A stretch of DNA of 64,000 nucleotides, from positions 1,302,001-1,366,000 of the forward strand of contig JAADJZ010000007.1 in NCBI GenBank assembly GCA_011032825.1. Direction: 5' to 3'. The DNA is from Massariosphaeria phaeospora. Lineage: Eukaryota; Ascomycota; Dothideomycetes; Pleosporales. The position numbers and the translations under genes are program-made. A model generated the notes under the pieces. That model saw only the letters and a list, made by a program, of their open reading frames with translations. It ran no database searches and was not told where the DNA came from. The number at the start of each line of letters is the position of its first letter. Within the stretch, counting starts at the first letter, position 1. Positions 15,945 through 57,054 of the stretch are shown here, in pieces.

Positions 15945-16337
15945 TAGGCTGGTAAATAAGTAGAGGTTGAGTTAGAGTTGAGTTAGCTTACGTTAGACTC
16001 TAACTTAACTTTAGCTTTAACTTGCGCTAGTTACTAAGTAGCTTAGGTTAAAGTTAAGTTAAAGTAGTTAAAGCTTAGAGTTGTAGTTAAGTCTTACATA
16101 ATATTTACAACTTATATTAATATTAAGTTTTCTATGTATATTTATTACATTTACTTATTATAGTTTTTTAACTATTTAAGTAACTCTAACTTAACTTTTA
16201 ACCTAGAGCTTTAACTACTCTAACTTAACTCCTACCTACGCTAGGTTAACTCTAACTTAATTTTAACCTAAAGTCTATGCAACTTATAACCTAACTTATA
16301 CCTATTAATAAGTACTTTCTACCTATTCGCTAGCGTA
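15945..16337 (+). mobile_element. MITE-1, 393 bp, hAT-derived
   Basis: Begins TAGGCTGGTAAAT and ends CGCTAGCGTA. The 8-bp target duplication GAAATTGC is at 15937-15944 and 16338-16345; it splits the transposase reading of P-1. No coding capacity. Its C residues are strongly converted to T. Confidence 0.95.
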
Positions 16338-24515: not shown

Positions 24516-25273
24516 TAAGCTTTTTTTTGTAACTTATAGTAAAAGCAGTTTTCTTTGTGTCGTTATTAGCGATATTTTTAAAAAGCTCGCTTTTGTTCTA
24601 GCGTTCTTTCTAAAAGCGTGCTGTTTTGAAAGTTTTTTAGCAATTTTCTATTAACGTTCTAGTAAGCTGCCGAAAATTCTTGCTAGGTAGATAAAGCTTT
24701 TGTGTTTTTAAGTTCTAGCGCTAGTTTTTATGTAGGCTAGTTATAGCTAGTCTATTTAACCTACGCTAGCGAATAGGTAGAGAGTACCTATTAATAGGTA
24801 TAGGTTAGGTTATAGGTCGCACAAACCTTAGGTTAAAGTTGAGTTATAGTTACTTTAGCGTAGGTAGGAGTTAGGTTAGAGTTATCAAAGCGTTAGGTTA
24901 TAGTTTAGTTAGAGTAATCGAAGCTTAGGGTTAGAGTTAAGTTAAAAGTTACATTTAGGTTATAGGGTTATGTGTTAGCTTAGAGAGTTGCTAAAGTTTA
25001 AAAAGTTATTACAGCTAGTTATCACATTTAAGAACGCGCAAATTGTATTTACGAAGTTTTGTTATTACAGCTACTATTCACGTACAAGAACACAAGTAGA
25101 GTAAAAAAAGTTGTATTACTACAGATATTAATTACAGTAGCGTAGAAGTCGAGCGCGCTTTCGTAGCAGAAGTAGCGAATTCTCTTCTCTTAAATTATTA
25201 TCCGACAGAGTTATCTTTGATCGTAAAGGCCTAGATGTAGGCCTAGATGTAGGCCTAGATAACGAGCTAGGTG

Positions 25274-25666
25274 TAGGCTAGTAAATAAGTAGAAGTTGAG
25301 TTAGAGTTGAGTTAGCTTACGTCAGACCTCAACTCAACCCTAGCCTTAACCCGCGCTAGTTACTAAGCAGCTTGGGTAGAGGTTGGGTTAGAGTGGTCAA
25401 AGCTTAGGGTTGTAGTTGGGTCTTACATAATATTTACAACCTATATTAATATTAAGTTTTCTATGTATATTTATCACATTTACTTATCACAGTTTCTTAA
25501 CTATTTAGGTAACCCTAACCTAACTCTCAACCTAGAGCTTTGACCACCCTAACCCAACCCCTACCCACGCTAGGTTAACTCTAACTTAACTTTAACTCAA
25601 GGTCTGTGCGACCCATAACCCAACCTATACCTATCGATAGGTACTCTCTACTTATTCGCCAGCGTA
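25274..25666 (+). mobile_element. MITE-2, 393 bp, inside hAT1
   Basis: Target duplication GCTAGGTG at 25266-25273 and 25667-25674. It is one of the least RIP-altered copies and still shows CCCTAA/CCTAAC-like runs (for example AACCCTAACCTAAC near 25,503), so it approximates the ancestral sequence. Confidence 0.95.
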
Positions 25667-25869
25667 GCTAGGTGTAGGCCTAGATGTTAGCCTAGGTGTT
25701 AACCTAGATAACGGGCCAAGTGTAAGCGTAGATGTAGGCCTAGAAGTAGAGTCTACATACTGCGCTTAAAAGTTAAGTAGGTTCTCAACCTCGTTACATA
25801 GTAGTTCTTTATTATCTGCCTTTGCAAACTAAAGGACGCTGTCCTGTTCTTTCTCTTAAGCAATACAGT

Positions 25870-28400
25870 TTTTTAATATTATAATCTGCCAAATTGTTTA
25901 GGCAGCAAGTTGGTGCTTTCTATCGCTAATAACATTCTTAGCAACGTTGAATTCGCGCTCGACTTCAACCTAGGCAATCTGTACTGCAAGTACATCTTTT
26001 GCAACTTGTAATAAGCGTAGATACGTTTCTTTATTTACTTGCTACTATTTAAGAATATTAAAAGAAGCACTAGCGCGTACGCAGGCAATGCTTAGATAAG
26101 CTTTCTCTTCTTAGCGAGTTAGGCTCTTTCTTTCTTCTGTTTCGTCTAGGTTAACAGATGAAAAACTGCTTAGCAGCAACTAAAGCAAAGGCTTTAGTCT
26201 TTGAAACTATTTACTACTTTGAAGTCTAGTTGTACGGAACGGAGAAATAGAAGTAAAAGCAAAGCGAGTATCGTCGTTATAGCAATCAAAGTAATCAAGA
26301 AACTCTTCGCGGTAAGTGTGCTTGTTTTGATTATTCTAGGTTTCGTTCTAAACGCGCAGTTAGCATATGACTGTAATAAGTAACTGTAATAACTATACCT
26401 CGTACGCCGTAAGCTTTTGGCTAGAGTCCAAAATAGTAGCACAATTAAATAAAAACTCTCGTTCATCGCTAGTCTTTTTATAATACTTGCTAAGTTTAGC
26501 TTTTTCTTTATCTGCAGCGGCTCGTACAACTGTAGGCTACTTAAAAGTATCTCGATTTTCTGTGTCGTCGTTAAGTTCGTCCTGCATACTATTTAAAAAG
26601 TTGAAAAAACAGTTGTACATAAGCTAGATATACTAGACTTGTAGCTTGTAGTTTTCACTTAAAAAGTTTGTTGCGTCCTTAAAGTTTTTAAGCATATTAG
26701 TAATTAACTTTAAGTAGTGCTATTTGTCTAGTGTTAATTTTAGTTGCCTAAAGTCGCAGAAGTTTACTTTTGCTGTATTCTCATTATCTAGGATACTGCT
26801 TGCACTAATTGTTATCTTAAGTGCAATCTCTTTTACTAGCTATTCGTTGATAAATTTTTAGATCTTAAGTGCGCGCTCGCACATATCGTAGGTTGAATTT
26901 TATCGTGTTTTAACGTCGCGAATAACAGATATCTGTTGTTTTAGTAGCAAGTGTAGTTGCGTAGCGATAAACCGCTTGTATCGTTAAGACGACGAATCAA
27001 TTGCTATGCAGATAGCTCAAAGCTAGGTGTGTGTTAGGCTGTAATAAAAGTATATAATAACGCACTGTATACCTTGCAAAGAGAGTTTAAAACAAAGATA
27101 TTCGCTTGCACGTCGCTTAAATAGCGTTTCTATAGTATTTCTTCTAGTTCAACGTCAGCACCTACTAATGCTGCAAGCTTAAAGTGTGAAATAATATTTT
27201 AAACAACAAGGTTAATAATGTAAGCAAGACACAGGATTGAGTTTTTTAATAAGCTCTAAAGTATGTCCTCTGCTTCTAGTTGCTGTTTAATAACACAACT
27301 AAGCGTTTTGTTTTTTTTAGCATTATCTGCAGTAATTGCTAGAAAGCGTAATTTAATGCTAGTGTTTGAGAGTACTTGCAGTATATTAGCAGCTGCAGCA
27401 GCACTAGTATGTTTTCCGCGTAGAAAAACGAAATCTAGCAACTTCTTCTAAAGCTGCTAGTTGCAGTTAACGTAGTATCCTTTAACTGCAAAGAAACTAA
27501 AATAATTAAAAGCAAACTACCTATCTATCGCAATTGAGATTTTAGTTAACTAGCTAATGTTATTAAGAAGTAATGCTTTAGCTTTTTCAAATCGTTCATA
27601 GAACATTCTCTAGAATTTGAATCAGCTAATACTTGAAATATTAGGTCGAAGAAATTAAAGAAATCGCTAGAATAAGAGCTGCTTAATTGTTTGAAAAGAC
27701 TAGTTGCTATATATAACTACTCGTACTAGTTCTCGTTTAAAGGCCTAGGTCGAATATAGTAGTACAATAGTAGTAAATTAAAGTTAACGTAGTACTAGCT
27801 GTAGACGAGGTTGAGAGTAAATAGAAGCAAGCGTTCTTTAGCAGGTCCTAGATTCGAAGTAGTTAAGTAAGTGTTTAGTTCTAATAGTTTTAACTGCTAG
27901 GTGCTAAAGAGCAAGGCCGCAATTATAGCAGAATACGTAGAGGTAGCTATTACTAGAATTAGCAGCTTTTTCAAACTATAGCTATACCTAACTAGTGCGT
28001 ACAGCAAAGTTCCATCGCGGATTTGCTGTCTCTAGGTCTAGAGCCTACTTAGTAGAACTCTACTACATTTTCTACGCAGTTACTACTGCTTCTTGTTCTG
28101 TATCATCTTTAATATGCGTAAAAGAATATTTTACTAGATGTAGTTTATTTTTTTCTTTTTTTCAAACAAATTGCTTAGCGTCGAATTTAAATAGACGAAC
28201 AAGTAGCGAAAGTTCTGCTATGTTTATAACAAAAGGTATAGTACAAGAGCGCAGGTACTGTAATAATAAACTGTAATAATTAGTGTTAGAGTAGACTAAA
28301 GATAGAGAATAGGTACATTGCCAAAGAAGAACACGCAGATTGTTAAAGAAAAACAGAACATGCTTTTTTGCCTGCGAAATATTGCTAACGTTTAAGCGCA
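25870..28400 (-). pseudogene. hAT transposase (catalytic and C-terminal parts), RIP-degraded
   Basis: Minus-strand frames show hAT landmarks. Near 28,160-28,400 is a BED-finger-like segment (WQCTY ... YLRSC). At 27441-27256 lies the RNase H-like core: GKHTSAAAAANILQVL then LAITADNAKKNKTL, whose Asp (codon 27325-27327) matches the first catalytic Asp of hAT enzymes. Near 25,880-26,000 is a C-terminal dimerisation-like block with EVEREFNVAKNVISDRKH. A 51-bp intron is likely at 26398-26348. Stops and frame breaks throughout show it is dead. Exact ends are uncertain. Confidence 0.82.
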
Positions 28401-28599
28401 AAGGCTAAGGCAGTAATGCAACTAAGATTAGAGCTAGAATTAAAGTTGCAGTAGTAGCGCCTTAATCTTACAGTTCTAATTAAGTTATACTTGCTAATCT
28501 GTTAATTGCAATGTTATGCACGTTTTAGGCTGCGTTATAGACAGTAGATACTAGCTGTGTTTATGCTAGCAACGTTTTAATTTACATAGAGAGTAGAGA

Positions 28600-29921
28600 G
28601 CCTTAGGTTTGCGCTTTCTCATAAGCGTTACTATCGTTAGAGAAACTCTTTTAATCTAAATACTCTACTAACTTAGTTTGCTTTACTACTTTAGTTTGCT
28701 CTACTACTTTATCCACTACCTTATCCTGCTCTTTATTCTTATTTTTATTTTTAACTTTTTTTTTATCTTTACTAGAGGACTCGTTTGCTTCTGCTAACGC
28801 TTTCTTCTACTAATTTTCTGTTTTATATTCGTCTTTACACTTATTGTAGAACGCATTAATTTCTAAGTTGCTACTTGCTTCTTCTTTACACTTATCAATT
28901 GTAGGCGCTAGAATATACGGGCTGTTGATATTTTCATAGGCATTGTTGCTGTTAACGCGCAGTTTAAGAGAAAGCGTAGGCTTGCGTAAGCTAGTGCAGT
29001 TAGTATAGGTATGTAATAAACTGCTGTAATAACTTACTTCTAGTTCTTAGCAGTTACTAGTGTTAGATCCTCTAGAGTCAACGTCTTCACAAACTCTTGC
29101 CAATCCATTTTAGCCTTTTCGTTTTTAAACGAATTATTCTTTAACTTAGCTAATCCGTTTAAGTAGATACGTTGCATAATTCTATTAGTAGCCTCGCTAG
29201 CGCCAAATATTCGCGACATTGGCTAATTCTTAATCTTTCTCTTGTTTTCTAGTGCTTTGGCAATTTGTTCAAGAATGTTTCTGTGCTGTCGAAAGTCAAC
29301 ATCGTGATAAATACAGGCCTACTTTTTATAGGCAAGGCTAAGTTTTGCTTGAAACTACTCAACTGCGTATTGTAAGTACAATAACGTGATAAACTAATAT
29401 AATAACTTACTGCTTTTCTGTGCGCGGTAGCGTTGCTTATCTAAAAGCTTAAGTTTAGTTGCTAACTGCTTTTTCTAGTCGTGCGCAGACAACGCAGTAA
29501 ACTTCTTTTTCGCCTTAAGCTTTTTCTTAAGCTAGTATTTTGCTTGCCAATTTTCTGCACTAGCATCTGCAATAGCCTTTCCTTTAGCACTTAAGTAAGC
29601 TGTTTGATCTCTCTAAGCAGTTGCGCAAGCAGTATTGCTTAATTAACTCTTAGACAGTAGCTTGTAATGTGTAGAGCGCTCTCTTCGTAATCCAACGCAA
29701 CTGCAATCTGCTAGTACGCTAAGGACTTCGTGCTTTTTAAACTTAAAGCCTTAAGTCTGTTAGCAAATGCTGTAATAAACTTCTGTAATAATTACATTTG
29801 TAAGCGCTTTTCACTCTGCTAGCTTAAACCTAGTTAGAACCTCAATCTCGTAAAGCGAAAGCAACTTATTATTAAGCTCGTAGTCTATCTCGTCGTTAAG
29901 CTTCTGCTTAATTGCGGCCAT
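28600..29921 (-). pseudogene. Unassigned hAT1 gene, or N-terminal part of the transposase
   Basis: Not recognised. Start chosen at ATG 29921 in context ACGATGGCC, giving MAAIKQKLNDEIDYELNNKL. Introns inferred at 29795-29750 (46 bp), 29410-29363 (48 bp) and 29037-28991 (47 bp), all GT-AG. The product is charged, with QRIYLNGLAKLKN, KMDWQEFVKTLTLEDLTLV and a Lys/Asp/Glu-rich linker (KKKVKNKNKNKEQDKVVDK). It could be a separate accessory gene or the first exons of the transposase; the distance to the BED-like segment and the linker leave both open. Broken by RIP stops. The counterpart in hAT2 is at about 54,322-55,643. Confidence 0.55.
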
Positions 29922-30216
29922 CGTATTTGTAATAAATGTAGGTGATAATGAAGCTAGTTGTAGTACGTAGGTAGGTAGAAGCAGAAAGTAAAGTAGCAAA
30001 AAGTTAGGTAGCGAATTTACAGGCTAAATTCTGTGTAGAGTAGCCTGTGCGCTGCTGCAAAGGCTGCAGCCTTAGCTAGCGCCTTGCTGCTAGCTACTCA
30101 AAACACGCACTTCTGCTGCAGCCTCTGCAGCCTTCTTACCTGCCGTAATTATTACGAATAATTATTACGACTTTCTACTCTCTACACTACACCTATTACG
30201 CATTAATTCTTCCGCG
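29922..30216. promoter_or_regulatory. Divergent promoter region between hAT gene and H3-like gene
   Basis: 295 bp between the two outward starts. It contains a palindrome-like CGTAATTATTACG motif (near 30,147-30,172) and repeated GGCTGCAGCC-type GC blocks (30,050-30,135) that stand out from the AT-rich surroundings. A regulatory role is inferred from position only. Confidence 0.4.
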
Positions 30217-30769
30217 ATAGCCCGCACCAAGCAAACTAACTGCTACTACCTTGCTACTAGCGGCAAGGTTCCGCGAAAGCCTCTCGCAGCAAAAGCAACT
30301 CGCAAATCTAGCAATCTGTACAAAAACAAGAAGAAACTAACAATAGGTAGTGTAAAGAAGTTTTACTGCTAGAAGCAAAAGAGTAAGTTATTACAGCAGT
30401 TAATTGCAGCCTTGTTTTTAACAACATGCAGCTATTGCGTTGCGCGAAATTCGACGATACTAGAAATCAACTAAGCTCCTTATGCGCAAACTGCTATTTA
30501 GTCGGCTAGTTCGCAAGATTGCGCAAGAGTTTAAGCCTAATCTACGCTTTTAAGCTAGTGCAATTAAAGCTATACAAGAAGTAACAAAGGCTTTTCTAAT
30601 CGGCATTTTCGAAGGTATAGCTTTCTACTTGTTGCTAGGTGCAAGGCTAACTTTAACAGATACCAATATTAACGCCATACACGCGAAACGAGTAACGATC
30701 AACACGAGAGACATGAATTTAGCACAAAGATACTACAAGAAGTACAAGAAGAGTTTGCAGCAAATGTAA
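30217..30769 (+). pseudogene. Histone H3-like gene carried by hAT1, RIP-inactivated
   Basis: Three exons (30217-30382, 30432-30614, 30660-30769) give a 152-codon histone H3 homologue; canonical H3 has 135-136. The tail reads ARTKQT, a short non-H3 stretch (NCYYLATS), GKVPRKPLAAKATRKS, then a basic insertion. The histone fold follows: [68 protein letters not shown] and TRDMNLAQR, then a basic extension ending LQQM. Both introns (49 and 45 bp) are GT-AG and restore the H3 frame. The start is ATA (ATG altered), and stops at 30370, 30461 and 30551 lie where Gln is expected at least twice, as RIP predicts. The loop 1 length is H3-like, not CENP-A-like. It sits inside the element and is transcribed away from the transposase. 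Confidence 0.92.
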
Positions 30770-32567
30770 GAGCTAAAGTCTAGTTACTGCTTGTTCTAGC
30801 GGTATAAGGCTATAATAATTCTGAATTTTCTAGCGATACCTAGCGTAGACGTTGCTCTGTACTTAGCTATTAAAATGCAACTAATCCTACGCTGTAATAA
30901 CAATCTGTGATAAACTTAAGCAACTTGTACTTTGCTAACGTCGAAATACAACATGTAAACTCTAAATATAACAACTCAACTATAACCTAACTATAACCTA
31001 GAGCCTGTGCGAGATAACTCAACTTTAACCTAAAATCTATGCGACTTAACTCAACTATAACCCTGTACTAGCGTTGAAAGATTGAGTATATAAGTAGAGT
31101 TGAGTTAGGGTTATAAAAAAGGCAACTTAACTTTAACTCAACCTCTACCCATTCGCCAGCCTAATTTAACCTAATATTCTAGCTTTTGGCTTTTTCTAAC
31201 TTTCTTCTAGCGCTCGCTAGTAATGCGCTCGACTAGCTATTTCTACTCGCTTTCTACGGTAACGCTTCTTAGGCGCTAATCGAATACTATCTAGCTTTTC
31301 AAAGAATTGTCTACTGCGAGTCTAAGCTTATCTATTAGAAATATTAGATTTATTTCTAGTAGAGTATTCAAAACGACATTGCCTAGAAATTTAACTTTTA
31401 GAACTATATACTTGCTATTTTTCTAGTTTAGTTTCTTGCTTAAGCGCTTATTAGAGATATGTTTTTTGTATTGCAACTACACTTTATTTTCTACTCGAAG
31501 CAGCGGCGCTTCTTTTTTATGTCAATTTGCTTATTTTTTCTACTTTTATTAGGCCTTCGCTATAGCAGCTTGCGCGAAGTTAATAACTTTTTTTATTTTT
31601 TTAGCTATTTCTACTGCGCTTTGCTAAGAGTCTAGAGTTGCCTAGTAAAGCGTATTCGCTTTTTTCTTTGCTTAGAGCTAAATTGAGTTTATCTCGTAAC
31701 TATGCTAGAGAAAGAAAAAGCTTACTTTTGTTAACACTACTTTTTGTTTTTAGATTGCAATTTGTACAATAGAGCATAGCTGCGCCTAGTTCTTCTAGTT
31801 CTAATTTACAAACAGCTTTAAAATAGTTTTAATTGTTAAATTTGCTTTTTTTGTAGCTTCGTTGGTTTCTAGGTAGAAAGCTGTAGATAGCTGCTTTACA
31901 ATTTTAAGCTCTTTGCAAAGCGTTTTCTAGAATTCACTTACAAATTGTGCTTTTTAGTTAGAAACAATAGCGTTAGAAAGCTAGTAGTAAGCTACTACTC
32001 TTTTAATAAATACTTTTGCTACAATTGCTGCGTTAATTTTCGCTATAGAGATTAAGATTATATTCTTGCTTAATTAGTTTGTAATAACTAGTAGATTTGT
32101 GCACTCTTTGCTTTTTAACAGGTTAGTAATAAAGTCTATAAAAAGTTCTTTCTAGATCCTGTCCAGAACGAAAAGCAAGCGAAAAAAACTACTTTTTATT
32201 TTCTGCTATAGTTTCGCTCGTTTACATGCATCGCAGTTAGCAATGTACTTTTAAAAGTTCAAGCTTATTTCTAGCTAGAAGAAGTTTCTTTTGAGAATAT
32301 TGTAAGTATTTTTTTTGCTAAGGTGCCTTGCGATAAGCGAGTCGTAAGCTTTAAAAATTAATCTAGTGCGCAGTTGATACGTTTTTGGCACTTATTTTCT
32401 TTTTTAATAAAAAAGCGCGTTGTTTTTAACAGCGCAATTTGCTAAAAACGCTTTTAATTAAAAGCTTAAAAAAAACTTTCTACGAGTACTTTTTTTAGTT
32501 TAGCTTTTTTTTACAGCTTCTAAGGCTTCTTAGTACAAATTGTTTTTTTAAACTCTTCTATTTTAAA

Positions 32568-32960
32568 TAGGCTGGTAAATGAGTAGAGGTTGGGTTAGAG
32601 TTGAGTTAGCTTACGTTAGACCTCAACTCAACTCTAGCCTTAACCCGCGCTAGTTACTAAGCAGCTTGAGTAGAGGTTGAGTTAGAGTAGTCAAAGCTTA
32701 GGGTTGTAGTTGGGTCTTACATAATATTTACAACCTATATTAATATTAAGTTTTCTATGTATATTTATCACATTTACTTATTACAGTTTCTTAACTATTT
32801 AGGTAACTCTAACCTAACCTCCAACCTAGAGCTTTGACCACCCTAACTCAACTCCTACCTACGCTAGGTTAACTCTAACTCAACTTTAACCCAAGGTCTG
32901 TGCGACCTATAACTCAACTTATACCTATCGATAGGTACTCCCTACCTATTCGCTAGCGTA
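32568..32960 (+). mobile_element. MITE-3, 393 bp, in G1
   Basis: Target duplication ATTTTAAA at 32560-32567 and 32961-32968. Weakly RIP-altered while the surrounding G1 sequence is strongly altered. Confidence 0.95.
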
Positions 32961-50855: not shown

Positions 50856-51591
50856 CCTAGGCAGTTCGCGCGGCTACTAATAATTACGCTAGCAAATAAG
50901 TAGAGAGTACTTATTAATAAGTATAGGTTAAGTTATAAGTTGCACAAACCTTAGGTTAAAGTTAAGTTATAGTTACTCTAGCGTAGGTAGAAGTTAAGTT
51001 AGAGTTATTAAAGCGTTAAGTTATAGTTTAGTTAAAGTAATTAAAGCTTAGAGTTAGAGTTAAGTTAAAAGTTATATTTAAGTTATAAAGTTATGTGTTA
51101 GCTTAAAGAGTTGCTAAAGTTTAAAAAGTTATTACAGCTAGTTATTACATTTAAGAACGCGCAAATTGTATTTACGAAGTTTTGTTATTACAGCTACTAT
51201 TTACGTACAAAGACACAAGTAGAGTAAAAAAAGTTGTATTACTACAGATATCAATTACAGTAGCGTAAAAGTTAAGCGCGCTTTTGTAGCAAAAGTAGCA
51301 AATTCTCTTTTTCTAAATTATTATTTAACAGAGTTATTCTTGATTGTAAAGGCTTAAAGGTAGGCCTAGATGTAAGCCTAGATAACAAGCTAAGTATAAG
51401 CTTAAGTATTAGCCTAAGTGTTAACCTAGATAACGAGCTAAGTGTAAGCGTAGATGTAGGCCTAAGAGTAAAGTTTACATACTACGCTTAAAGGTTAAGT
51501 AAGTTCTTAACTTTGTTACATAGTAGTTTCTTATTATCTGCTTTTGTAGACTAAAGAACGCTGTTCTATCCTTTCTTTTAAGCAATACAGT

Positions 51592-54122
51592 TTTTTAATA
51601 TTATAATCTACTAAATTGTTTAAGCAGCAAGTTGGTGCTTTTTATTGCTAATAACATTTTTAGCAACGTTAAATTTGCGCTTGACTCTAACCTAGGCAAT
51701 TTGTACTGCAAGTACATCTTTTGCAACTTGTAATAAGCGTAGATACGTTTTTTTATTTACTTGCTACTATTTAAGAATATTAAAAGAAGTACTAGCGCGT
51801 ACGTAAGCAATGCTTAGATAAGCTTTCTTTTCTTAGCGAGTTAAGCTTTTTCTTTTTTTTATTTTGTTTAGGTTAATAGATGAAAAACTGCTTGGCAGCA
51901 ACTAAAGCAAAAGCTTTAGTTTCTAAAACTATTTACTACTCTAAAGTTTAGTTGTATAAAACAAAGAAATAAAAGTAAAAGCAAAGCGAGTATCGTTGTT
52001 ATAGCAATTAAAGTAATTAAAAAACTCTTTGCAGTAAGTGTGCTTGTTTTGATTATTTTAAGTTTTGTTTTAAACGCGTAGTTAGCATATAACTATAATA
52101 AGTAACTGTAATAACTATACCTCGTACGCCGTAAGCTTTTAGCTAGAGTCTAAAATAGTAGCACAATTAAATAAAAACTTTTGTTTATTGCTAGTCTTTT
52201 TATAATACTTGCTAAGTTTAGCTTTTTTTTTATCTACAGCAGCTCGTACAACTGTAGGCTACTTAAAAGTATTTTAATTTTTTATATTGTCGTCAAGTTT
52301 GTTTTGCATACTATTTAAAAAGTTAAAAAAATAGTTGTACATAAGCTAGATATACTAGACTTGTAGCTTATAGTTTTTACTTAAAAAGTTTGTTGCGTTT
52401 TTAAAGTTTTTAAGCATATTAGTAATTAACTTTAAGTAGTGCTATTTGTCTAGTGTTAATTTTAGTTGCTTAAAGTCGCAGAAGTTTACTTTTGCTATAT
52501 TTTTATTATTTAGAATACTGCTTGCACTAATTGTTATCTTAAGTGCAATCTCTTTTACTAGCTATTTGTTAATAAATTTTTAGATTTTAAGTGCGCGCTT
52601 GCACATATTGTAAGTTAAATTCTATTATGTTTTAACGTCGCAGATAATAGATATCTGTTGTTTTAGTAGTAAGTGTAGTTGCGTAGCAATAAACTGCTTG
52701 TATTGTTAAAACAACAAATTAATTGCTATGCAGATAGCTCAAAGCTAGGTGTGTATTAGGCTATAATAAAAGTATGTAATAACGCACTATATACTTTGCA
52801 AAAAAAGTTTAAAACAAAAATATTTGCTTGCACGTTGCTTAAATAGCGTCTTTGTAATATTTTTTTTAGTTTAACGTTAGCACTTACTAATGCTGCAAGC
52901 TTAAAGTGTAAAATAATATTTTAAACAACAAAGTTAATAATATAAGCAAGACACAAAATTAAGTTTTTTAATAAGCTTTAAAGTATGTTCTTTGCTTTTA
53001 GTTGCTGTTTAATAACACAACTAAGCGTTTTGTTTTTTTTAGCATTATTCGCAGTAATTGCTAAAAAGCGTAATTTAATGCTAGTGTTTAAGAGTACTTG
53101 CAGTATATTAGCAGCTGCAGCAGCACTAGTATGTCTTTCGCGTAGAAAAACAAAATTTAGCAACTTCTTTTAAAGCTGCTAGTTGTAGTTAACGTAGTAT
53201 TCTTTAACTACAAGAAAACTAAAATAATTAGAAGCAAACTACTTATTTATCGCAATTAAGATCTTAGTTAACTAGCTAATGTTATTAAAAAGTAATGCTT
53301 TAGCTTTTTCAAATCGTTTATAGAACATTCTTTAAAATTTGAATTAGCTAATACTTAAAATATTAGGTTAAAGAAATTAAAAAAATTGCTAAAATAAAAG
53401 CTGCTTAATTGTTTAAAAAAACTAGTTGCTATATATAACTACTTGTACTAGTTCCTATTTAAAGGCCTAAGTTAAATATAGTAGTACAATAGTAGTAAAT
53501 TAAAGTTAACGTAGTGCTAGCTGTAGACGAGGTTAAGAGTAAACAAAAGTAAGCGTTCTTTAGTAAGTCTTAGATTTAAAGTAGTTAAGTAAGTGTTTAG
53601 TTTTAATAGTTTTAACTGCTAGGTGCTAAAGAGCAAAGCTGCAATTATAGCAGAATACGTAGAAGTAGCTATTACTAGAATTAGCAGCTTTTTCAAACTG
53701 TAGCTATACTTAACTAGTGCGTACAGCAGAGTTTTATCGCGAATTTGCTATTTCTAGGTTTAGAGCCTACTTAGTAGAACTCTACTACATTTTCTACGCA
53801 GTTACTACTACTTTTTGTTCTGTATTATTTTTAATATGCGTAAAAAAGTATTTTACTAGATGTAGTTTATTCTTTTCTCTCTTTTAAACAAATTGCTTAG
53901 CGTTGAATTTAAATAAACGAACAAGTAGCAAAAGTTTTGCTATATTTATAACAAAAGGTATAGTACAAAAGCGCAGGTACTGTAATAATAAACTGTAATA
54001 ATTAGTGTTAAAGTAGACTAAAAATAGAAAACAAGTACATTGCTAAAAAAAAACACGCAAATTGTTAAAAGAAAACAGAACATGCTTTTTTGCTTGCAAA
54101 ATATTGCTAACGTCCAAGCGCA
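51592..54122 (-). pseudogene. hAT transposase of hAT2, RIP-degraded
   Basis: Collinear with the hAT1 transposase. The stretch 53163-52978 retains HTSAAAAANILQVL, but the catalytic block reads LAITANNAKKNKTL: the Asp of hAT1 is Asn (codon 53047-53049), a G-to-A change that fits RIP. Many stops. Confidence 0.8.
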
Positions 54123-54321
54123 AAGGCTAAGGCAGTAATGCAACTAAAATTAAGGCTAAAATTAAAGCTGCAGTAGTAGCGCTTTAATTTTACAATTCTA
54201 ATTAAGTTATACTTGCTAATTTGTTAATCGCAATGTTATGCACGTTTTAGGCTGCGTTATAGATAGTAGATACTAGCTGTATTTATGCTAGCAACGTTTT
54301 AATTTACATAAAAAAGTAAAG

Positions 54322-55643
54322 AGCCTTAGGTTTACGCTTTTTCATAAGCGTTACTATCGTTAGAAAAACTTTTTTAATCTAAATACTTTACTAACTTAGT
54401 TTGCTCTACTACTTTAGTCTGCTCTACTACTTTATCCACTACTTTATCCTACTTTTTATTTTTATCTTTATTTTTAACTTTTTTTTAATTTTTACTAGAG
54501 AACTCGTTTGCTTCTGCTAACGCTTTCTTTTACTAATTTTTTATTTTATATTCGTCTTTACACTTATTATAAAACGCATTAATTTTTAAGTTGCTACTTG
54601 CTTTTTCTTTATACTTATTAATTATAGGCACTAGAATATACAAGCTGTTGATATTTTTATAAGCATCGTTGCTGTTAACGCGTAGTTCAAAAAAAAGCGT
54701 AGGCTTGCGTAGGCTAGTGCAGTTAGTATAGGTATATAATAAACTACTATAATAACTTACTTTTAGTTTTTAGCAGTTACTAGTGTTAGATTCTCTAGAG
54801 TTAACGTTTTTACAAACTTTTGCTAATTCATTTTAGCTTTCTCGTTTTTAAACGAATTATTTTTTAACTTAGCTAATCTATCTAAGTAGATACGTTGCAT
54901 AATTCTATTAGTAGCCTCGCTAGCGCCAAATATTCGCGACATTAGCTAATTCTTAATCTTTTTTTTGTTTTCTAGTGCTTTGGCAATTTGTTCAAGAATG
55001 TTTCTGTGCTGTTAAAAGTTAATATTGTAATAAATACAAGCCTACTTTTTATAGGCAAAGCTAAGTTTTACTTGAAACTACTTAACTACGTATTGTAAGT
55101 ACAATAACGTAATAAACTAATGTAATAACTTACTGCTTTTTTATGCGCGGTAGCGTTGCTTATTTAGAAGCTTAAGTTTAGTTGCTAACTGCTTTTTCTA
55201 GTCGTGCGTAGACAACGTAGTAAACTTTTTCTTCGCCTTAAGCTTTTTTTTAAGCTAGTATTTTGCTTGCTAATTTTTTGCACTAGCATTTGCAATAGCT
55301 TTTCTTTTAGCACTTAAGTAAGCTGTTTAATCTCTCTAAGCAGTTGCGCAGGCAGTATTGCTTAATTAACTTTTAAACAGTAGCTTGTAATGTGTAGAGC
55401 GCTTTTTTCGTAATTTAACGCAACTGCAATTTGCTAGTACGCTAAGAACTTTGTGCTTTTTAAACTTAAAGCTCTAAGTTTGTTAGTAAATGCTGTAATA
55501 AACTTTTATAATAATTGCATTTGTAAGCGCTTTCTACTTTGCTAGCTTAAACCTAGTTAAAACTTTAATCTCGTAAAGTAGAAGCAACTTATTATTAAGC
55601 TTGTAGTTTATCTTGTTGTTAAGCTTTTGCTTAATTGCGGCTA
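54322..55643 (-). pseudogene. hAT2 copy of the unassigned hAT gene
   Basis: Collinear with 28,600-29,921 of hAT1, with more RIP stops. The start region at about 55,643 has ATT-like change of the ATG context. Function unknown. Confidence 0.5.
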
Positions 55644-55939
55644 TTGTATTTGTAATAAATGTAGGTAATAATAAAGCTAGTTGTAGTACGTAGGTAGGTA
55701 GAGGTAGAAAGTAGAGTAGTAGAAAGTTAAGTAGCGAATTTACAAGCTAGATTCTGTGTAGAGTAGCTTGTGCGCTGCTGCAAAAGCTACAGCTTTAGCT
55801 AGCGCTTTGCTGCTAGCTACTTAAAACACGCACCTTTGCTGCAGCTTTTGCAGCTTCTTTACCTACCGTAATTATTACAAATAATTATTACGACTTTCTA
55901 CTTTCTATACTACACTTACTACGCATTAATTTTTCTACG

Positions 55940-56492
55940 ATAGCTCGCACTAAGCAAACTAACTACTACTACTTTGCTACTAGCAGCAAGGTTTTGCGAA
56001 AGCTTTTCGCAGCAAAAGTAGCTCGCAAATCTAGCAATTTGTACAAGAATAAAAAGAAACTAACAATAAGTAGTATAAAGAAGCTTTATTACTAAAAGCA
56101 AAAAAGTAAGTTATTATAGCAGTTAATTGCAGCTTTGTTTTTAACAACATGCAGCTATTGCGTTGCGCGAAATTTAACAATACTAAAAATCAACTAAGCT
56201 TTTTATGCGCAAACTGCTATTTAGTCGGCTAGTTTGCAAAATTGCGCAAAAGTTTAAGCCTAATCTACGCTTTTAAGCTAGTGCAATTAAGGCTATACAA
56301 AAAGTAACAAAGGCTTTTTTAATTAGCATTTTTAAAGGTATAGCTTTCTACTTGTTGCTAAGTGCAAAGCTAACTTTAATAGATACTAATATTAACGCTA
56401 TACACGCGAAACGAGTAACAATTAACACAAGAAACATAAATCTAGCACAAAGATACTACAAGAAGTATAAAGAGAGTTTGTAGCAAACGTAA
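55940..56492 (+). pseudogene. Histone H3-like gene of hAT2, RIP-inactivated
   Basis: Collinear with the hAT1 H3-like gene, same exon structure (about 55940-56105, 56155-56337, 56383-56492), same start-codon loss (ATA) and same stop position. It retains ARTKQT, ARKS (KATRKS in hAT1), [19 protein letters not shown] and [14 protein letters not shown]. It carries more stops and missense changes than copy 1. The unusual tail stretch after ARTKQT is also present, so it was ancestral to both copies. The neighbouring gene is divergent, as in hAT1. Confidence 0.88.
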
Positions 56493-57054
56493 AAGCTAAA
56501 GTTTAGTTGCTACTTGTTCTAGCGGTATAAAGCTATAATAATTCTAAATTTTTTAGCAATACCTAGCGTAGACGTTGCTTTGTACTTAGCTATTAAAATG
56601 CAACTAATTCTACGCTGTAATAACAATTTGTAATAAACTTAAGCAACTTGTACTTTGCTAACGTCGAAATACAATATGTAAACTCTAAATATAACAACTT
56701 AACTATAACTTAACTATAACCTAGAGCTTGTGCGAGATAACTTAACTTTAACCTAAAGTTTATGCAACTTAACTCAACTATAACTTTGTACTAGCGTTAA
56801 AAAATTAAGTATATAAGTAGAGTTGAGTTAGAGTTATAAAAAAAGCAACTTAACTTTAACTCAACCTCTACTCATTCGCTAGCCTATAACTAAGAATAAC
56901 AAATACGATATTATTCTAAAGCGCTTATAGATAAACAGAAGCTAGGTAACGCTAGCTTCGGCAAAGAAATTAATTTTCATCTATTCAACTAAAACACGCG
57001 TGCGAAGCTAGAAAAAAAAAAGCTTAAACAAAAGCTTTAGCAAGTGTTCGCAGC

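Follow-up and report, generated by a model that had tools for sequence, protein, structure and literature searches.

The hAT element and its genes

The 64,000-nucleotide stretch of DNA analysed here (the window; C49:1302001-1366000 in the 42.08-Mb, 51-contig genome of Massariosphaeria phaeospora, a member of the Pleosporales in the Dothideomycetes) carries a hAT element with genes for a transposase, an acidic central protein and a divergent histone H3 (H3L) (Table 1). GC content drops near window position 16000, from about 50% to about 31%, and stays low up to the window end, which marks the edge of an AT-rich block; the genes before this drop look ordinary. The element ends in imperfect inverted repeats of about 21 bp, its breakpoints at 24762 and 31163 are common to sister copies, and the 8-bp sequence ATTTAACC flanks it on the left and right as a perfect target duplication, as the initial annotation had described. 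Copy L018, without the inner 0.4-kb insert of the window copy, measures 6001 bp. Target duplications were judged at both ends in 16 of the 22 copies compared at length, leaving aside L013, L014, L016, L019, L025 and L028, whose left end is not recognisable. The 8-bp duplication is perfect in seven (the window copy, L010, L015, L018, L021, L022 and L023) and differs only by C/T or G/A in five (L011, L012, L017, L026 and L027); comparison of the ends gave no duplication in L009, L020 and L024, and no clear one in the second copy in the window.

Table 1. Coordinates of the element, its genes and related features (window positions unless a contig or L018 is named)
Feature	Position	Strand	Details
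hAT element	24762..31163		6402 bp; breakpoints common to sister copies, inverted ends, target duplication
Left 8-bp target duplication	24754..24761		ATTTAACC
Right 8-bp target duplication	31164..31171		ATTTAACC
Left terminal inverted repeat	24762..24782	+	matches the right one at 18/21 bases
Right terminal inverted repeat	31143..31163	-
hAT transposase gene	25128..28221	-	exons 27073-28221, 26399-27022, 25128-26347; RIP-broken, last exon also split by inner insert
Central gene, acidic protein	28603..29921	-	exons 29796-29921, 29411-29750, 29038-29362, 28603-28990; RIP-broken in window
Divergent intergenic region between central gene and H3L starts	29922..30216		295 bp, two motif pairs; window coordinates by offset from L018
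H3L exon 1	30217..30382	+	start codon gone by RIP-type change
H3L exon 2	30432..30614	+	histone-fold match
H3L exon 3	30660..30769	+
TTATYAC-N6-TTATYAC pairs	25006-25025, 30149-30168	+
TTATYAC-N6-TTATYAC pairs	26373-26392, 28260-28279, 29013-29032, 29772-29791, 29929-29948, 30894-30913	-
MITE-like insert in transposase exon	25274..25665		about 392 bp; one end resembles first 154 bp of hAT (83%)
Second MITE-like copy	32568-32959		one end resembles first 154 bp of hAT (82-83% for the two)
Second hAT copy	50885..56886		H3L at 55940-56492
L018 element	L018 2447-8447 = C23:1144888-1150888		three genes open, RIP-free
Intact host H3	C23:2041763
CenH3-like gene	C31:113193-113591

All three genes are open in L018, with GT-AG introns and one stop each, at the terminus. 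The L018 transposase (863 aa) matches the hAT dimerisation region PF05699 (4e-16) and Hermes (3.9e-14), and the window frame was matched as hAT with its stops included. The central protein of L018 (392 aa) has a net charge of -48 in its last 129 residues, and searches returned no Pfam match over the cut-off (E up to 1) and no PDB match. Homologues were found in Pyrenophora seminiperda (44% identity over 93%) and Bipolaris sorokiniana (35% over 97%); of 7998 candidates scored, no others reached E <= 0.001. The central gene and H3L of L018 diverge from a 295-bp region between them.

Inside the element, the initial annotation had placed a three-exon H3 homologue, and the exons, GT-AG introns (49 and 45 bp in the window copy) and quoted protein motifs are all present at 30217-30769. 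The profile search that it had proposed as a check matched Pfam Histone (PF00125) with the 152-aa L018 product (3.1e-36) and with GenBank protein P0123 (1.9e-17), which agrees at both ends with the window H3L and with none of the three other copies tested. P0124, a GenBank protein from the contig of P0123, corresponds to copy L010, and the spliced product of GenBank model P0002 (M. phaeospora) is the same as that of L018 H3L. H3L keeps the H3-type tail motifs ARTKQT and GGVKKP and retains K4, K14, K27, K36, K56 and K79; with this tail and the histone fold, it belongs to the histone H3 family. It fails as a canonical H3, since ARKS around K9 is absent and tail length is altered: NRHHPA stands in place of ARKS, the stretch from K4 to K14 is free of other lysines, insertions relative to host H3 add two residues in the K9 region and eight after position 29, and the C-terminus is altered and longer. 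An unmasked protein search with H3L was swamped by canonical and fused H3s (best 120 listed of 8000 scored). The masked search yielded six proteins at E <= 0.001 from seven candidates; four are from M. phaeospora, and P0125 and P0127 (Willaertia magna) were not accepted as H3L. At L018 position 7582 (window 30298), L018 has A, giving threonine before RKS, and 21 of 24 other copies have G, giving alanine as in canonical H3; as the window copy is absent from those 21, it and L018 may be closest kin.

H3L occurs at 40 or more genomic places (43 matches less three fragments of listed copies), the counts being lower bounds as at most 40 candidates were scored per search. A central-gene match lies within 5 kb in 33 of the 40, and in 25 a transposase match lies within 8 kb as well, on the opposite strand. 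The linkage is less than complete in the other direction, with H3L out of reach of 13 of the 44 transposase pieces and 6 of the 40 central pieces. Two pairs of places with equal scores (C28/C50:1646911 and C18/C14:738023) may be duplicated stretches. This recurrence, mostly beside the other hAT genes, rules out an ordinary H3 gene hit by a separate insertion, which the initial annotation had named as a refutation; the cargo is common to other hAT copies.

RIP, paired motifs and MITE-like inserts

Comparison of the window copy with L018 revealed 686 differences in 6001 bases, every one of which (686/686) is C>T or G>A, in agreement with the earlier proposal that start loss and stops reflect RIP of a once intact gene. 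In 21 copies compared with L018, 17,463 of 17,690 differences are of this type, and the rate of C>T change per available site, as a sum for these 21 copies, is 8.9 where A follows, compared with 4.7 to 5.4 where the next base is C, G or T. The window copy is thus a RIP-mutated repeat, and across the 21 copies the transitions favour CpA. The second window copy is full-length and more heavily RIPped, with 1099 of its 1110 differences from L018 being C>T or G>A. These data show that the family amplified in M. phaeospora and that RIP hit every copy examined except L018. The latter sits in DNA with a normal base composition (46 and 48% GC in the flanks, 47.5% in the element), and the window copy is AT-rich with its surroundings (32, 36 and 32% GC). 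Either a recent transposition or asexual descent could account for the escape of L018. Alongside it exist many RIPped copies at 77-90% identity to the L018 transposase part. Setting RIP-type changes aside, H3L in 24 other copies has 13 nonsynonymous changes, 5 synonymous changes and 1 stop (expected 13.6, 4.8 and 0.6), and the non-RIP changes in the transposase and central genes look neutral too. Such neutral-looking changes, as in dead copies, mean that this within-genome test lends selection no support.

Scanning L018 for TTAT[CT]AC revealed 21 half-sites, 18 of which make nine pairs, each at a spacing of 13 bp (TTATCAC-N6-TTATCAC). All nine pairs lie in non-coding DNA including introns, with none in exons: they occupy both transposase introns, two of the three central-gene introns, the regions upstream of all three genes and both outer parts. 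The three single half-sites lie in a central-gene exon, a central-gene intron and H3L intron 1; the scan found none in H3L intron 2. Extending the motif to TTAT[CT]ACA leaves 16 sites, every one outside coding sequence, where 0.2 would be expected in that non-coding DNA. The window copy still fits eight of the nine pairs. Genome-wide there are 309 pairs versus four for the reversed pattern. Of 100 listed pairs, 67 have an element piece within 7 kb, 17 fall in scored MITEs and 16 are elsewhere. For the MITE-like element splitting the window transposase, 40 of 380 candidates were scored, giving at least 41 full-length matches genome-wide. Since the window MITE retains a pair together with one hAT-like end, the pair is likely a binding site for the transposase or an accessory protein.

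Divergence of H3L from the host histones

H3L and host H3 are identical at 96 of 136 residues. Nei-Gojobori comparison gave pN 0.20 and pS 0.68, corresponding to dN 0.24 and dS 1.81, a single pairwise and rough estimate as dS is near saturation and host H3 is codon-biased. When drift of host H3 was simulated without selection, 999 of 1000 runs still had at least 70% identity after 0.1 changes per site; at 0.24 this fell to 16 of 1000, and at 0.5 and at 0.9 no run of 1000 kept it. This loss of identity indicates that the H3L frame was probably kept by selection during much of its history, and because that history passed in a mobile element, the likeliest selective agent would be the element's own success. 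The introns of host H3 fall in codons R8 and Q120, those of H3L in codons matching T45 and D106, so H3L is neither a genomic copy of this host H3 nor an intronless retrocopy; the two GT-AG introns rule out the latter for the M. phaeospora element, and dS together with the intron positions disfavours recent capture from the host's own H3. Two histories would fit: a processed or foreign sequence was captured and later gained introns, or the source was a lineage whose introns differ. With dN well below dS and the L018 frame open, H3L would have entered the element long ago and been kept as a protein gene during its spread. The recent amplification, these data suggest, should not be read as recent capture of H3.

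That H3L is instead a captured centromeric H3 (CenH3) is hardly credible. Its divergence and its long branch (0.48) in the tree would suit such an origin, but H3L scores 69% over 140 against host H3 and 57% over 92 against host CenH3, retains the ARTKQT tail and is placed by the tree among canonical H3, a placement that is not firm as no branch has full support. On closeness to H3, ARTKQT and tree position, we rejected the CenH3 identity.

Candidate roles and comparison with known systems

For identity, structure, RIP and long-standing membership alike, we consider it very probable that the window element belongs to a hAT family of autonomous type with three genes, that RIP has killed this copy, and that the divergent H3 has long been one of the family's genes. 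We lean towards H3L serving this element in some way. Constraint on the protein, the lost K9 and the motif pairs lend indirect support to the candidate roles in silencing or chromatin that the initial annotation had suggested. In fungi, silent repeats are marked by methylation at K9, a residue that is read within its ARKS context. In the likeliest route, H3L would be expressed from the region that it shares with the acidic gene, would pair with host H4 and enter nucleosomes, possibly with the acidic central protein as its partner, and nucleosomes holding H3L would favour the element. The likeliest advantage would be that, as the H3L tail has no K9 to methylate, fresh copies resist silencing. 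We consider this specific K9 mechanism unlikely, and the animal-like tail described for the Pyrenophora tritici-repentis element in excerpts of PMC3538342 may mean that K9 is present there, which would speak against it.

Alternatively, H3 may have been captured by chance through passive transduplication and be useless to the element, which is how excerpts of PMC6710886 interpret the Mycosphaerellaceae elements. The neutral look of the non-RIP changes among M. phaeospora copies agrees with this explanation, which we regard as possible though doubtful: H3L is open in L018 with dN 0.24 against dS 1.81, unselected drift would have ruined the histone fold, and the three-gene content recurs in P. 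tritici-repentis as described in the excerpted PMC3538342. If H3L does have a function, it might act in transposition itself and have no part in silencing, for example through the transposase, excision or the chromatin of the target. Its place in one unit with the transposase and the third gene would accord with such a role, as would the paired motif kept in MITEs together with the element's end, which suggests a binding site for transposition; H3L intron 2, however, has no half-site and intron 1 only one, and we judge a transposition role to be rather unlikely. Less probable still would be a histone that works through dosage or as a decoy, poisoning host H3 chromatin or diluting it, with K9 irrelevant. 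The altered C-terminal helix and the tail insertions on a preserved fold could produce such a protein, but a poison would hurt the host bearing the element. Our preferred reading of H3L is a standing gene of the element, to which the open L018 copy, near-saturated dS with a preserved histone fold, private introns and gene content shared across genera point. Whether a transposon gains by supplying its own nucleosome part thereby becomes a testable question. A broader conjecture, which we think improbable, is that Pleosporalean hATs keep under selection a K9-less H3, an acidic partner and paired motifs as a variant-nucleosome system against heterochromatin silencing, and that the published H3 captures in several genera trace to one old family of H3-bearing elements.

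The initial annotation knew of no description of histone cargo in a hAT, and here the literature had preceded it: such cargo was published in 2013 (PMC3538342) and 2019 (PMC6710886), and an H3-bearing RIPped repeat is reported in PMC3017866. These three were the only papers on H3 in fungal transposons or repeats that the open-access literature gave, and open-access PMC literature yielded no relevant report on M. phaeospora transposons. The comparisons below follow excerpts of the papers cited. Short motifs repeated in the non-coding DNA of a transposon with extra genes are also seen in Arabidopsis VANDAL/VANC (PMC10398659), purely as an analogy, since VANDAL is a different kind of transposon for which the excerpts mention no histone, and anti-silencing is shown there, whereas the likeness in M. 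phaeospora is one of motif layout only.

Among fungi, repeat R25 of Stagonospora nodorum (Hane and Oliver 2010, PMC3017866) is likewise a RIPped, H3-bearing repeat with weak similarity to DNA transposons, but it measures 3320 bp, has 23 copies and was classed as an endogenous gene region, and the excerpts describe no element structure for it; perhaps it is another H3L-hAT. Dhillon et al. 2019 (PMC6710886) described hAT-borne H3-like genes in six Mycosphaerellaceae, with 784 RIPped H3-like segments in P. fijiensis and similar ones in five more species. The element of Pseudocercospora, Cercospora and Sphaerulina resembles ours in its H3-like segments, 8-bp duplication and destruction by RIP, but is 9.5 kb long with one or two H3 segments, interpreted as an intronless copy of a captured transcript, in contrast to the single H3L with two introns in M. 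phaeospora. The P. tritici-repentis event was taken there as recent and independent, with no similarity noted between the two elements. The M. phaeospora data call into question the reading of H3 cargo as a recent intronless retrocopy. Intron 2 of H3L, at 45 bp, is in frame, and the 16-residue insertion reported for the second P. fijiensis H3 segment might be an intron of this sort left unspliced.

The closest description is that by Manning et al. 2013 (PMC3538342) of a 5.6-kb hAT in P. tritici-repentis, against 6.0 kb in M. phaeospora. Between the inverted ends that description places a hAT transposase, a central ORF and a divergent H3 whose tail has insertions; it also reports ESTs and 26 copies of H3L, and likens the H3 tail to animal H3 tails. 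There the copies are near-identical, most frames are open and a 2.3-kb recombinant exists, whereas the M. phaeospora copies are RIPped except L018. Set beside these systems, what our data suggest as new is H3L as a standing gene of the element, with two private introns, a K9-less tail, the 295-bp divergent layout and nine motif pairs. Manning et al. raised the question of whether, and why, selection acts on the genes that such elements capture, and the status of H3L as a standing gene and not a recent accident appears to bear on that question. The gene content shared with P. tritici-repentis, the central-protein homologues in two more species of Pleosporales and the near-saturated dS together suggest one old H3L-hAT family, at least in Pleosporales.
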